Made by a program: the position numbers and the translations under genes. 41,350 nt of DNA from Chloroflexota bacterium. Lineage in GTDB: Bacteria > Chloroflexota > Anaerolineae > Anaerolineales > Villigracilaceae. This document shows, in pieces, positions 3,855-41,287 of this stretch. How positions within the stretch are numbered: the first letter of the stretch is position 1; each line of letters starts with the position of its first letter. The notes under the pieces are model-generated. The model saw only the letters and a list, made by a program, of their open reading frames with translations, searched no databases and had not been told where the DNA came from. Location: NCBI GenBank assembly GCA_019873655.1, contig JAIOAU010000023.1, forward strand, positions 1 to 41,350, given 5' to 3'.

Positions 3855-5839
3855 GAGGGGAACCTGAATTCGGTGAGGAATTGGAATGTCTCGGCGGCGC
3901 GGACGACCACCGCCAGCGAGAGGGCTGGCCTCTTTATACCATAGGTTGACGAGATCCAGCCGCGGATCGGCTCCGCCGCGCCCGCGCCGTGGACGACCTC
4001 GCCGCCGCGGACGAGGGAGACCTCCGCCTGAGCGAGCAGCGGGGAAGGATCGGTCGCGGCGGTCAGCGTGACCGACCCATGAGGCGACTCCAGCCTCAGG
4101 ATGAGTTGGCCTTCGCCGTCTTCGATTTGCCAGGGCCAGTCGGGCAGCAGCCAGTGGAGGCGGAAGGCGCGCGGGCGGCGCTTCCAGCGCAGGCCGGGCA
4201 GGAAGAGCAGTTCGTCTTCGATTTGCCAGCGGTCGCCGGCGCGGACGGTGACGGTTCGGGTGTGGCGGATTCCCAGGCGGCGGTAGGCGTAATGGCGCGC
4301 CTGCGCTCTTTGCAGCACCTCTTCATCGGCCGAGAGGAGGGTCTTGTAGTAGGCGTCGGCCCAGTCGAGGTAGAGGAAGCGGCCGGCGCGGGTCATCTGT
4401 TCGCGGCCGTCCACGCTGACGGTGTTGTGGACGAGGGTGGAGGCGAGGGAGTTGTCCCAGGGGGGCGGGGCGTTGTAGAGGTAGGTTCCGGCGTCGCAGG
4501 CGACATTGAGGCCGCGCCACCACAGGTCGAGGTGGAGTTGGTCGGCGTGGGAGGGGCGCGTCGTCAGGCGGACGGCGCGCAGGCAGGCCCAGGAGTCGCG
4601 GCCGGTCAGGTTGTCGCCGGGGTAGCGCGGCAGGTCGAGGGCGCGCGGGGAGTCGAGGGGCAGGCCGAGCCAGAGCGCCATCTCGTCCCAGGGGCCGGCC
4701 GGCAGGCGGTAGTTCAGGAAGGCGCGGGCGGCGGCGTGGGCGACGGGGCGGTAGTCTTCGAAGGGGCAGGTGGAAAGCGGGAGGGGGTAAGCGCCGTCGT
4801 TGGCGCCCAGGTTGGGAGCGCGGCCGGAGACGGGGTCGAGCAGGCCGAGCGTCCAGTGGACGGCGCGCCCCAGGGCTTCGAGGGTCGGGCGCGGCCAGGT
4901 TTCTCCGCGCCGGCGGAGGAGGGCGTCCACCCAGAGGGCCAGTTGCAGCATCAGGCGCTGGTAGTTGGCGCTGTGCTGACTGTATTCGCCGTAGCCGTCG
5001 ATTTGGGTCTGCAGGCCGCGATTGAGCCATTTCCAGCCCAGGGCGCGCCAGTGGGCGGCCTGGGGATGGGAGGGCAGGGCCAGGCCGGCGGTGAACAGGC
5101 CAACGGCCTCGCTGAGCAGGTGGTTGTTGTTCTGGGCGCGGGCATAGACCAGGGTTGGCGGGATGCGGGCGGCGTGGGCGGCGACGGCGCGCCCCAGCCG
5201 AATCCGGCGCGCCGGCGTGGAGGCGGGCGAGGCGGCGAAGACCTGCCCCGCCCAGACGAAGGCCATCAGCCGCAGGGCGACCTCCTGGGCGCTCATCCAG
5301 TGGGGGCCAAGGCAGGGCGGGTTGGCGTCCAGGAACTGCTCGGCCAGGCGCCAGAAGGCCTCGGCGTATTTTTCGCGCCCGCTGAGGAGGTAGGCGCGGC
5401 CGAGCGGGAAGGCCCAGCCGAAGCGGGCCGGCTCCCAGAGGAATTTGACGTCGGGGACCTCGGCGTAGAATTCGGCGAGCAGGGCGGGGCGGCGCTCATA
5501 GACCGTCCAGTGCTGCAAGCGGCGGTCGAAGGCCAGGCGCAGGTCGGCGGGAGGGCCTCCAAAGAGGCGGACTTTGCCAGCGGCGATTTCGTCGGCCTCG
5601 GCCAGCAGGGCGGCCAGGCTCTCCTGGTCGAGGCAGCGCCGGACGGCCTGCAGAGGGGGCAGGGGCAGGAGCGGCTCTAGAGTCCACTCACCGACCGGCA
5701 GGGGACGCCTGGTGAGCCGCCGGTAGTGGCCGCTCCACAAGCCGAAGCGGTAGAGGCCGTAGAGGGCGAGGGGGCCAGGTCCCAGTTGGCGCAGGGCTTT
5801 GAGGGCGAGGAACAGACGAGCCGGGAAAGTCGGTTGCAT
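3851..5839 (-). CDS. Heparinase II/III family protein
   Basis: 662 residues. The N-terminal alpha-toroid (about 60-340) contains RAQNNNHLLSEAVGL and YGEYSQHSANYQRL, where the family places catalytic Asn/His/Tyr residues. The C-terminal beta-domain (about 390-630) contains PSHADQLHLDLWWRG and LVHNTVSVDGREQM, the hallmark of heparinase II/III C-terminal domains. There is no signal peptide, as is common for the copies found in bacterial exopolysaccharide clusters beside a two-domain oxidoreductase, as here. The reaction (polysaccharide lyase or biosynthetic role) is not settled by sequence. The start ATG at 5839 lies in the last unit of the 5836-6103 repeat array and has no Shine-Dalgarno sequence. 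No better start is seen downstream, because family members begin close to this point. Confidence 0.87.
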   Translation of the reverse strand: MQPTFPARLFLALKALRQLGPGPLALYGLYRFGLWSGHYRRLTRRPLPVGEWTLEPLLPLPPLQAVRRCLDQESLAALLAEADEIAAGKVRLFGGPPADLRLAFDRRLQHWTVYERRPALLAEFYAEVPDVKFLWEPARFGWAFPLGRAYLLSGREKYAEAFWRLAEQFLDANPPCLGPHWMSAQEVALRLMAFVWAGQVFAASPASTPARRIRLGRAVAAHAARIPPTLVYARAQNNNHLLSEAVGLFTAGLALPSHPQAAHWRALGWKWLNRGLQTQIDGYGEYSQHSANYQRLMLQLALWVDALLRRRGETWPRPTLEALGRAVHWTLGLLDPVSGRAPNLGANDGAYPLPLSTCPFEDYRPVAHAAARAFLNYRLPAGPWDEMALWLGLPLDSPRALDLPRYPGDNLTGRDSWACLRAVRLTTRPSHADQLHLDLWWRGLNVACDAGTYLYNAPPPWDNSLASTLVHNTVSVDGREQMTRAGRFLYLDWADAYYKTLLSADEEVLQRAQARHYAYRRLGIRHTRTVTVRAGDRWQIEDELLFLPGLRWKRRPRAFRLHWLLPDWPWQIEDGEGQLILRLESPHGSVTLTAATDPSPLLAQAEVSLVRGGEVVHGAGAAEPIRGWISSTYGIKRPALSLAVVVRAAETFQFLTEFRFPS

Positions 5840-6103
5840 CGAATGACGCGAATTATGCGAAGAAGGAACGTTTGAGCATCGAATGGCACGAAGTTTACGA
5901 AAATGAGTTTAGCATCGAATGACACGAATTTCACGAAGGAGGAAAGTTTGGCATCGAATGGCACGAAGTTTACGAAAATGAGTTTAGCATCGAATGGCAC
6001 GAAGTTCACGAAGAAGAAAAGTTTAGCATCGAATGACGCGAATTACGCGAAGGAGAGAAGTTTAGCATCGAAGGACACGAATTTCACGAAGGACGATTAA
6101 TTT
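5836..6103. repeat. Seven-unit array built on TCGAATGRCRCGAA words
   Basis: Seven imperfect units start with GCATCGAA at 5836, 5876, 5912, 5951, 5987, 6026 and 6065, with spacings 40, 36, 39, 36, 39 and 39. Each unit holds two CGAA half-words that change together: units 1 and 6 have GACGCGAATTAYGCGAAG, units 3 and 7 have GACACGAATTTCACGAAG, and units 2 and 4 have GGCACGAAGTTTACGAAA (unit 5 is close). The array supplies the stop codon of the oxidoreductase (TGA, 6084-6086) on one side and the ATG of the heparinase gene (5837-5839) on the other. It is not a CRISPR array, because there are no unique spacers. Confidence 0.9.
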
Positions 6104-9907: not shown

Positions 9908-11704
9908 ATGGCCTTCAGTCCGAATTTCCTCTCCCAGCGCGACCCTCGATGGAAGGGCGAGTCGCTTGGGTTCGACACGTCCATCACCATCGGCAGCGAC
10001 GGCTGCGCCCTGACCTGCCTGGCGATGCTGGTCAACGGCTACGGCTACGAGGAGACGCCCTCCACGCTGAACGCCAAATTGAAAGGCCTGGGCCCGGGCA
10101 GCGGTTTCCTGGGCGGGCTGATCGTCTGGGGCGGGCTGACGCGCCTCTTCCCCAAGATCACGTTCCAGCGCATCGTCATCTGCCGTGACCAGCCCGCTCC
10201 CATCCAGGCCATCGACCAGTCCCTCGACGCCGGTCAGCCGCTGGTCATCGAAATCGACTCCTCGCCCGCCGCAGGCCTGCAAAACCACTGGGTGGTATTG
10301 TATGGCCGTCAGGGCGGCGATTACCTGATGCTCGATCCCTATCCCTACCCGCCCGACAACCGCGCCATCACCCTCGGCGAGCGCTACGCCAAGGGCCGCC
10401 CCCCGGCCGAATACATCACCGCCGTCGTCTGGTATCAGGCGGTCGGGCTGGGGCCGGGGCCGACGCCCGGCGGCGGCCTGACCCTGCGTATCCCCGACTC
10501 GGTGACCGCTGGCCTGCGGGTGCGCGCCGCCCCGACCACCGCCTCCGCCACCCTGACCATCGAACCGTCCGGCAGCCTGCTCAAATGTCTGGAGCCGGAG
10601 TCGGTCGCCCGCCCGAAGATCGGCGTCTATGACCAATGGCTGCGGGTCAGCACGACCGGCGGCGTGGAAGGCTACGTGGCCGCCTGGTATGTCGAAGCCG
10701 TGGAATCGCCCGCTCCGCCCCCTGCTCCGACCCCTACTCCGACCCCCGCTCCGACCCCTGCGCCGACGCCCACTCCGACTCCTGCTCCTGCTCCGGCCCC
10801 CGCGCCCGAACCCCCGCCGGTCGAGGCCGGTCCGCTGATCGGCAGCGTGGTGCTGAGCGTTGGTTCCAGCGGACTGCGCGTCCGCACCCAGCCCAGCCTG
10901 GCGGGCGGCTACGTCACCACCATCAAGGCCGGGCGGCAGATGACGATTCTCGATTCGCCCGAAGAGGCGCGCGCCAAGGTCGGCAAGGCCGGCCAGTGGC
11001 TCTACATCCGCACCACCGACGGGCGCGAGGGCTACGTCCAGGCCCAGTACGTGACCCTGGGCGACGCCGCCGCCGAGGCCGCCTCTGCCCCGACCCCTGC
11101 TCCGACCCCCGCTCCGACGCCTGCGCCGCAGCCCGAACCCACTCCGACTCCTGCTCCTGCTCCGGCCCCCGCGCCCGAACCCCCGCCGGTCGAGGCCGGT
11201 CCGCTGATCGGCAGCGTGGTGCTGAGCGTTGGTTCCAGCGGACTGCGCGTCCGCACCCAGCCCAGCCTGGCGGGCGGCTACGTCACCACCATCAAGGCCG
11301 GGCGGCAGATGACGATTCTCGATTCGCCCGAAGAGGCGCGCGCCAAGGTCGGCAAGGCCGGCCAGTGGCTCTACATCCGCACCACCGACGGGCGCGAGGG
11401 CTATGTCCAGGCCCAGTACGTGACCCTGGGCGACGCCGCCGCCGAGGCCGCCTCCAGTCCCGCCCCCGCCGCAGCGCTGACGGTCACCGTCTCCGGCCTG
11501 GTCGGGTCGGGCGGACTGCGGCTGCGGGCGGAGCCGTCCACCACCGCCAACACGTTGAAAATCCTCGCCGCCGGCACGCCCCTGACCGTCTTGGAGACGG
11601 CCGCCGCGGCGCAGACTAAGATCGGCGTCTATGACCAGTGGCTGAAGGTGCGCGATCCGCAGGGAACGGAAGGCTACGTCGCCGCCTGGTACGTGCAGAG
11701 GTAA
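9908..11704 (+). CDS. C39-like peptidase with four SH3 domains
   Basis: 598 residues. The N-terminal ~190 residues resemble the peptidase C39-like fold: SQRDPRWKGESLGFD, IGSDGCALTCLAML (candidate nucleophile C33, or C37), NHWVVLYG (H127) and MLDPY (D143). Four bacterial SH3-type domains follow (GLRVRxxP...WxxV...EGYVxxxYV), separated by Pro/Thr/Ala-rich linkers. SH3 domains two and three, with their linker, are nearly identical copies in a 123-residue period. Such domains usually bind cell-wall peptides, so a surface peptidase or wall-binding protein is likely. No signal peptide or lipobox is seen, so the export route is unclear. The start at 9908 has GAGGTG just upstream. Confidence 0.82.
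   Translation: MAFSPNFLSQRDPRWKGESLGFDTSITIGSDGCALTCLAMLVNGYGYEETPSTLNAKLKGLGPGSGFLGGLIVWGGLTRLFPKITFQRIVICRDQPAPIQAIDQSLDAGQPLVIEIDSSPAAGLQNHWVVLYGRQGGDYLMLDPYPYPPDNRAITLGERYAKGRPPAEYITAVVWYQAVGLGPGPTPGGGLTLRIPDSVTAGLRVRAAPTTASATLTIEPSGSLLKCLEPESVARPKIGVYDQWLRVSTTGGVEGYVAAWYVEAVESPAPPPAPTPTPTPAPTPAPTPTPTPAPAPAPAPEPPPVEAGPLIGSVVLSVGSSGLRVRTQPSLAGGYVTTIKAGRQMTILDSPEEARAKVGKAGQWLYIRTTDGREGYVQAQYVTLGDAAAEAASAPTPAPTPAPTPAPQPEPTPTPAPAPAPAPEPPPVEAGPLIGSVVLSVGSSGLRVRTQPSLAGGYVTTIKAGRQMTILDSPEEARAKVGKAGQWLYIRTTDGREGYVQAQYVTLGDAAAEAASSPAPAAALTVTVSGLVGSGGLRLRAEPSTTANTLKILAAGTPLTVLETAAAAQTKIGVYDQWLKVRDPQGTEGYVAAWYVQR
10769..11454 (+). repeat. Near-perfect in-gene tandem duplication, 369-bp period
   Basis: The segments 10769-11085 and 11138-11454 (317 bp each, offset 369 bp) differ at only one position that I can find (11035 C versus 11404 T, a silent change). 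Each codes for the end of a Pro-rich linker plus one SH3 domain. The linker between them has diverged in length and sequence. Confidence 0.93.
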
Positions 11705-36035: not shown

Positions 36036-36194
36036 AGTGCTCCTGTGTTGAGTGTTCCTGTGTCAAGTGTTCCCGTGTCAAGTGTTCCTGTGTCAAGTGT
36101 CATGTCCCGGATATCATTATTTAAGCAGGATGACCTCGACACATGACACCGGAAAACGTGGCACTGGAAAACATGACACCGGAAAACGTGACAC
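36036..36194. repeat. Two opposed 15-bp word arrays between glpK and glpD
   Basis: The left array has four 15-nt units (36036-36050, 36051-36065, 36066-36080, 36081-36095) of AGTGTTCCTGTGTCA type. The right array has 15-nt units at 36143-36157, 36158-36172 and 36173-36187 of ATGACACCGGAAAAC type, plus a partial unit to 36194. Read on the opposite strand the left unit is TGACACAGGAACACT, so the two arrays are inverted versions of one word around a 47-nt centre. The left end runs to within 6 nt of the glpD ATG and the right end to the glpK stop. Confidence 0.88.
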
Positions 36195-40395: not shown

Positions 40396-40410
40396 TGCCA
40401 AATTTTTAAC

Positions 40411-40439
40411 TTGACTCTCGTTCCTCTTCCTTTTACAAT
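40411..40439 (+). promoter_or_regulatory. Promoter of the riboswitch-gcvH transcript
   Basis: TTGACT (40411-40416), an exact 17-nt spacer, then TACAAT (40434-40439). The predicted transcript start near 40446 is about 18 nt before aptamer 1. Confidence 0.82.
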
Positions 40440-40463
40440 GAATACGCTCTACAACCCAACGGC

Positions 40464-40722
40464 CGCAGGGAAGAGACTCCGAGCCAGGCGAGGAGCGCCG
40501 AAGGGGCAAGCCCGCAGACTGGCGAGAGCGGGCGAAACTCTCAGGCAAAAGGACCCTGCGCCGCCTTCCTCTGGAAAGTTCCCCACACGGGAACACCGAC
40601 GGGGCAAGTTTAGTCAACGAGTCAAATAGTCTGATAGTCGCGAGTCTCATAGTCTGTGAGACTGACGACTGTGAGACTAACGACTATAAGACTAGATGAA
40701 TCTCTCAGGTCTTTTACAGAGG
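40464..40722 (+). promoter_or_regulatory. Tandem glycine riboswitch
   Basis: Aptamer 1 (40464-40560) is closed by P1 CGCAGGG/CCCTGCG and holds GCCGAAGGGGCAAGCCC and ACTCTCAGGCAAAAGGAC, the glycine aptamer consensus. A 7-nt linker follows. Aptamer 2 (40568-40722) is closed by P1 CCTCTG/CAGAGG and holds ACCGACGGGGCAAG and GAATCTCTCAGGTC. Its P3 arm is greatly extended by a repeat array. The 3' strand of P1 in aptamer 2 shares bases 40720-40722 with the terminator stem, so glycine binding should favour read-through into gcvH. That is an on-switch, as is usual for gcv genes. Confidence 0.93.
40611..40694. repeat. AGTCT/CGACT word array forming the P3 arm of glycine aptamer 2
   Basis: Nested pairings: TAGTC 40611-40615 with GACTA 40690-40694, TAGTCT 40627-40632 with AGACTA 40674-40679, AGTCG 40636-40640 with CGACT 40666-40670, and AGTCTCA 40643-40649 with TGAGACT 40657-40663, closing a 7-nt loop. 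All strands are variants of one short word and its complement. Confidence 0.85.
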
Positions 40723-40750
40723 CGCATGATGGTGAATCGTGCGCCTTTTT
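40720..40750 (+). terminator. Riboswitch-controlled terminator
   Basis: Stem 40720-40730 (AGGCGCATGAT) pairs along its whole length, with one G-T pair, with 40736-40746 (ATCGTGCGCCT) over a 5-nt loop. It is followed by TTTT to 40750. Its first three bases overlap P1 of aptamer 2. Confidence 0.9.
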
Positions 40751-40789
40751 CGTTTCGCCAAAAATTTATCTCTTTCGAGGAGACCCAAA

Positions 40790-41167
40790 ATGAACATTCC
40801 TTCCCATCTCAAATACACCAAAACCGATGAATGGTTCGACCCCGCCACCGGCAAGGCCGGGCTGACCGACTATGCCCAGTCGCAACTCTCGGACATCGTC
40901 TTTGTCGAGATCACCGTCGGCGCGGGCGATACGGTCGAGTTTGGCAAGGCGATTGCCTCGGTGGAATCGGTCAAGGCTGCAGCGGAATCCTACGCCCCGG
41001 TGAGCGGCAAGATCGTTGCCGTCAACGAAGGCCTGGCCAACGCTCCCGAAACCCTCAACAGCGACCCCTACGGCGCGGGCTGGCTGGTCCAAATCGAAGG
41101 CGGCGACCCCTCCGGCCTGATGGACGCCGCGGCCTACGAAAAGTATTGCGCAGAGCGCGCCCATTAA
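40790..41167 (+). CDS. gcvH: Glycine cleavage system H protein
   Basis: 125 residues. HLKYTKTDEWFDPATGKAGL leads to the lipoyl domain, with the lipoyl-lysine in ASVESVKAAAESYAPVSGKI. NSDPYGAGWLVQIE follows. GcvH carries the aminomethyl group between GcvP and GcvT and delivers one-carbon units to tetrahydrofolate. GAGGAGA precedes the ATG. It lies directly after the glycine riboswitch. gcvT and gcvP are not in the window. Confidence 0.97.
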   Translation: MNIPSHLKYTKTDEWFDPATGKAGLTDYAQSQLSDIVFVEITVGAGDTVEFGKAIASVESVKAAAESYAPVSGKIVAVNEGLANAPETLNSDPYGAGWLVQIEGGDPSGLMDAAAYEKYCAERAH

Positions 41168-41168
41168 T

Positions 41169-41239
41169 GCAGTCATTAGTCATTAGTAAATAGTAATCAG
41201 TGAGTGGGTGTCAGTCATAAGACTAATCACTGATAACTA
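41169..41239. repeat. AGTCATTAGT word quasi-palindrome after gcvH
   Basis: AGTCATTAGTCATTAGT opens the array. TAGTAATCAGTGA (41191-41203) pairs with TCACTGATAACTA (41227-41239) over 13 positions with one mismatch. There is no T run, so terminator activity is doubtful. Confidence 0.75.
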
Positions 41240-41287
41240 TGTAAAGTCTCATAAATTCGTACCTTTACAGTCTCATAAAATCATACC
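41240..41287. repeat. Two 24-bp direct repeats, possible transposon end
   Basis: Units 41240-41263 and 41264-41287 match at 20 of 24 positions and share AGTCTCATAAA. The first starts with TG. Back-to-back direct repeats starting with TG are typical of the transposase-binding ends of IS21 or Mu-like elements. The remaining 63 nt to the window edge hold no gene I can support. Confidence 0.55.

Follow-up and report, generated by a model that had tools for sequence, protein, structure and literature searches.

A tandem glycine riboswitch lay at the end of the window (the whole 41,350-nt stretch of DNA analysed; G000:C23), upstream of gcvH, and the features from the promoter-like site to the array after gcvH are on the plus strand. 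Aptamer 1 (40458-40566) scored 51.7 bits and aptamer 2 (40561-40729) 39.7 bits with the RF00504 model (cut-off 32). The earlier note had called two aptamers with a conserved core and proposed an Rfam check of the region; both aptamers were recovered, the model placed the second as given, and its core was intact. Aptamer 1 only was returned by the default Rfam scan of the whole window, and both aptamers exceeded the cut-off when the genome itself was scanned; in the alignment of aptamer 2, 81 nt at the tip of P3 were left unshown. The top match of a permissive scan of 40400-40800 was the related family RF03166 (52.1 bits, below its cut-off of 110). A promoter-like site (TTGACT, 17 nt, TACAAT; 10/12 match to the consensus) was present upstream of the riboswitch at 40411-40439; one such site was present, and shuffled sequences gave 0.5 on average. 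An intrinsic-terminator-like hairpin (GGCGCA...TGCGCC plus a T run; 40718-40748) overlapped with its 5' strand the 3' strand of P1 of aptamer 2 (ACAGAGG, 40716-40722), and the same hairpin and T run were common to G038, G018 and G061. The product of gcvH (40790-41167; glycine cleavage H-protein, 125 aa; PF01597, E 4.5e-31) was closest, among named relatives, to GcvH of Anaerolineales bacterium SKYG130 (86%).

The aptamer scores, the glycine-related downstream gene and a predicted expression platform with which P1 of aptamer 2 could compete all agreed with membership in RF00504, and the sequence features point to an element that is probably a transcription-attenuation ON switch. With the tandem form of RF00504 it shared two aptamers above the cut-off, conserved cores, the overlap of terminator and P1, and gcvH downstream, but it differed in that P3 of aptamer 2 was a 94-nt repeat-built hairpin, with a P3 of 28 nt in aptamer 1. 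Glycine aptamer conservation has been described by context (PMC6944388); the terms 'insertion' and 'Chloroflexi' are absent from that article.

The P3 arm of aptamer 2 (40608-40701) contained six AGTC words (starts at 40612, 40620, 40628, 40636, 40643 and 40651) followed by five GACT words (starts at 40660, 40667, 40675, 40682 and 40690), at a spacing of 7-8 nt. The arm was bounded by CCGACGGGGCAA and CTCTCAGG, and the stretch between these bounds measured 94 nt in aptamer 2 vs 28 nt in aptamer 1 (40510-40537), where P3 had no array and was identical in same-genus G038. The arm held 11 words; its dinucleotide shuffles (n = 5000) averaged 2.9 and never exceeded 9, and the rest of the window held at most 6 words per 112-nt stretch (peak at 41161). 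Together with its flanks (40594-40712), the arm was predicted to form one long imperfect hairpin (z -5.75; 0/200 shuffles equally stable). Two adjacent 15-nt units on its 3' side (CTGTGAGACTGACGA and CTGTGAGACTAACGA, 40654-40683) were 93% alike, which suggests local tandem duplication. The arm had been described as about 85 nt of AGTCT/CGACT repeats; the array was confirmed, with TAGTC/GACTA at a period of 8 nt as the better spelling of the word and 94 nt as the length. Identity between the G000 and G038 riboswitches was 100% in the aptamer-1 arm, 83% between the arms and 67% in the aptamer-2 arm (same-genus comparison of three genomes).

A second array of related words (AGTCATTAGTC ... GACTAATCACTG) was located at 41170-41243, after gcvH and outside the riboswitch. 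The earlier note had likened the arm to the other intergenic arrays of the window, which held for this array only as far as the word is concerned. The intergenic quasi-palindromic array at 36036-36194 was built on another word (GTGTCA/TGACAC), with AGTGTTCCTGTGTCA about four times and then TGACACCGGAAAACG about three times, and the sequence between genes at 5836-6091 was a 39/75-nt unit in tandem (GCATCGAATGACACGAA...), again different from the word of the arm. A 369-nt unit was present twice (97% alike) at 10722-11454, inside long open frames, as a proline/threonine-rich coding repeat.

The genome G000 contained 13 TAGTC triples, 12 of them outside the arm, and no TAGTT triples. The likeness in quasi-palindromic form was limited: only one of 18 AGTC clusters checked (the first 30 of 51 AGTC-triple matches; some within open frames, where they may be due to chance) was two-armed, with at least 3 GACT words nearby, and the dispersed arrays were mostly one-armed. 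Because of this low proportion, the cluster counts tie the two-armed form in G000 more to the arm than to the array process.

Riboswitch matches were obtained in 88/100 genomes of the family. The sample analysed comprised 86 genomes and 87 loci (two in G089), 82 of which were parsed as tandem pairs; the loci of G025, G044, G045, G060 and G069 were not, and the aptamer-2 arm of G060 was added by hand. With a threshold of at least 8 TRGTY/RACYA-type words in the right halves, array arms were present in 27/82 parsed tandem loci and in the partial locus of G060, and were spread over 11/26 genus codes. The score of each of the 27 arms was reached by 0/500 shuffles, and 171 of their 236 word spacings were exactly 8. 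The words varied among arms, being TAGTT in some and TAGTC or TGGTC in others. Every array arm was in aptamer 2, and G006 alone had one in aptamer 1 too. The 55/82 parsed tandem loci without an array arm had aptamer-2 arms of 17-94 nt (94 nt in G046). The length of P3 in aptamer 1 was 25-29 nt in 78/81 loci and 19, 20 and 133 nt in the others (G081, with a misparsed aptamer-1 arm, excluded); across the family it was mostly 26-28 nt, with a sequence that was often conserved (e.g. ATCTGGAACAGGCGAACCCAGATGAAA). These distributions suggest that the tip of P3 is constrained in aptamer 1, unlike in aptamer 2. The proposal that the array had expanded at a place of length change agreed with the relatives, in which the arm was recurrently array-built, or short or differently built. 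In locus L162 (G088), the aptamer-2 arm was a near-perfect palindrome of 40 nt, and the two P3 arms were 108 nt apart, about 40 nt more than the usual distance of about 70 nt.

More distant named loci (L052-L068 and L085; GcvH identity about 45-60%) had both aptamers parsed in 13/18 cases, and none of these 13 had an array, with aptamer-2 arms of 16-34 nt. On these loci the arm is not a conserved ordinary P3, the condition that the earlier note had named as a refutation, and gain of array arms within the family is suggested because the more distant loci have short, array-free arms. The arm of the named locus L043 measured 49 nt and held a one-armed array.

Dispersed arrays, counted as exact TAGTC or TAGTT triples with 2-5 nt spacers in 80/86 genomes (G012, G045, G054, G068, G092 and G097 left out), typically had units of a 5-mer plus three variable bases. 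At least 3 array matches outside the arm were present in 26/28 array-arm genomes vs 18/49 others (Fisher p = 8.6e-7), and the word type of the arm was the main word type of the genome in 22/26 (p = 8e-4; exceptions G031, G062, G098 and G002), related genomes being non-independent in both tests. A tree-controlled test, underpowered with 6 usable starred pairs, gave on average 2.4 pairs in the same direction and 0.0 in the opposite one (median p = 0.5). Fourteen genomes, e.g. G063 and G048, had at least 5 dispersed array matches yet no array arm. The TAGTC word read backwards, used as a control, was frequent in some array genomes (85 vs 64 in G002), which may be explained by the presence of CTGAT in TAGTCTGATAGTC with equal spacing. 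The backwards control for TAGTT was low except in G021. In a sample of the phylum, at least 3 array matches were present in 10/11 family genomes, and among 140 non-family genomes 21 had any match and 2 had at least 5; by these pattern counts, the 8-nt arrays occur largely within the family.

The explanation considered likely is that, in the predicted glycine riboswitch, a length-tolerant P3 in aptamer 2 has been rebuilt repeatedly from an 8-nt repeat that is dispersed in these genomes and specific to the family. A degenerate repeat typical of the family, whose members are relatives of the Anaerolineales (TAGTC or TAGTT followed by three variable bases, with a period of 8), would be dispersed in the genome, and the tip of aptamer-2 P3 would tolerate length change. 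Units in P3 would multiply through tandem duplication together with inverted copying, or be brought in by recombination, and two-armed versions would be kept since they fold away from the core. As any two complementary units can pair, gain or loss of an 8-nt unit would then shift the register and leave the hairpin unbroken, and the fold would survive because repeat units re-pair after slipping. The arm would thus turn over with no damage to the core that binds the ligand or to the switch between P1 and terminator. That structured RNA was extended without being destroyed, as the earlier note proposed, is suggested by the conservation of core and terminator. The riboswitch class is known, and its arm here has, as far as sequence comparison indicates, been rebuilt time and again from the repeat dispersed in the same genome.

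A bolder version, offered tentatively, is that a genome-specific 8-nt word (TAGTC or TAGTT plus NNN) is written and homogenised at dispersed places, with aptamer-2 P3 acting as a recorder that would stay functional through pairing in any register; such a process would be a bacterial counterpart to the concerted turnover of satellites. Under either form of rebuilding, the family offers a comparative set in which a riboswitch with a conserved core is present with or without an arm of the genome's own repeat, and in which repeat turnover inside a functional RNA becomes traceable and testable. Register slip suggests why structured RNA would tolerate repeat-built hairpins, as gains and losses of units would self-heal, and the set suggests that spreading repeats can rebuild RNA at a tolerant spot.

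A tree of gcvH DNA from 81 loci of the family, 27 of them with arrays, required at least 16 changes of array state, gains and losses pooled (27/80 inner branches starred and 34/80 open). The starred sister pairs G017/G048, G034/G014, G060/G068 and G000/G061 differed in array state, and the arm of G017 was a 90-nt array vs a 17-nt arm in its sister G048. G047 and G056 had identical cores over the 147 nt examined and aptamer-2 arms of 71 vs 17 nt, neither of them a TRGTY array, with the 60 nt downstream 78% alike. Arms can also move as units, because the aptamer-1 arm of G006 and the aptamer-2 arm of G055, in another genus, were 88% identical over 112 nt. In the same locus of G006 (L166), both P3 arms were 133-nt TAGTT arrays, and a third array was close by at G006:C22:109712-109795.

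The resemblance across genera between the G006 and G055 arms, together with a far weaker next match in G006 (1.6e-35 vs 3.4e-13), would also be expected if the arm were a transposed discrete hairpin element (REP- or MITE-like) that landed in P3 and was not grown in place. This is improbable, since the other matches to the G055 arm in the eight genomes searched were weaker, with an E value of 1.6e-13 at best, and for the most part covered only a portion of it, and the adjacent 15-nt duplicates in the arm of the window suggest local growth. Rickettsia palindromic elements and REP/BIME-type palindromes are dispersed, discrete and of recognisable sequence. The arm resembles them as a dispersed palindrome able to enter functional genes, but it differs in having a degenerate word, variable spacers and a variable number of units.

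Recurrent rebuilding from the dispersed repeat was compatible with the predicted behaviour of the fold. In silico, the folding energy left after any 8-nt deletion was 0.85 in 28 array arms vs 0.76 in matched hairpins of identical structure and pair content but non-repeated order, and the array arm tolerated the deletion better in 27/28 (exception G074). Across deletion lengths of 4-12 and 16 nt, the advantage of the arrays peaked at 8 nt (0.093), with 0.031-0.069 at the nine others. Substitutions between related arms broke fewer pairs than random ones in 20/21 arm pairs (p < 0.05 in 10), although the pairs shared members and included some non-arrays, and the null ignored word conservation and transition bias; this pattern gives weak support to a constraint on the arms at the RNA level.

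The same substitutions, the conservation of words with varying spacers and the strong predicted hairpins would fit a selected functional extension, in which the arm serves, for example, to bind a protein or an RNA or to guide folding, and selection acts on the word itself. That more than half of the parsed tandem loci had no array arm and that sister genomes differed speak against it, as do the limits just given for the arm pairs, and it is rated unlikely, slightly below the transposed element. An ordinary, vertically inherited long P3 that looks repetitive since many bacterial P3 arms vary freely is very improbable: the RF00504 consensus allows insertions at the P3 tip and long non-array arms exist (up to the 94 nt of G046), but the word content exceeded that of shuffles and had an exact 8-nt period, array arms were associated with dispersed arrays, and the arms of more distant named loci were short and array-free.

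The riboswitch was compared with RNase P RNA, for which 37 genomes were searched, 35 had a match and 30 loci were retained. No array was present in the RNase P RNA of these 30 relatives (best score 3-5 vs 8-12 in the 27 riboswitch positives); the scan was judged by score because the regular expression alone recovered 25/27 positives and missed 2/27. On this comparison, array arms as a general process of structured RNA were rejected, and of the earlier claim that the array process extends structured RNA, the part concerning riboswitch P3, where it was recurrent, was retained and the generality was not.

As the nearest precedent, STRR repeats are reportedly present (by title) in the cyanobacterial gene for RNase P RNA. 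In that case and in the arm, a structured RNA contains a short tandem repeat that is also dispersed in the genome, and the arm was a short-period tandem word (8 nt) with the same word dispersed in the genome (G000). They differ in that the cyanobacterial RNA is, by title, catalytic, and here the repeat is in a riboswitch arm, is word-matched to the genome and recurs in one part of the molecule; the RNase P RNA of the 30 relatives, unlike that of the cyanobacteria, had no array. A narrow literature search (intergenic inverted/tandem repeats) found no paper on arrays in Anaerolineae, and a search on repeats in structured RNA gave nothing relevant among the matches listed.

A second repeat type, CTGAGCGGAGG...GAAGG, was considered as a genome-resident source of other arms and rejected as weak, since a strict pattern found few matches. 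The single match in G035 was the arm itself, 2/3 matches in G043 were overlapping matches to the arm, and 1/2 matches in G069 was inside the riboswitch. In G000, eight CTGAGCGGAGG...GAAGG units formed a tandem cluster at G000:C16:64207-64590, about 43 nt apart.
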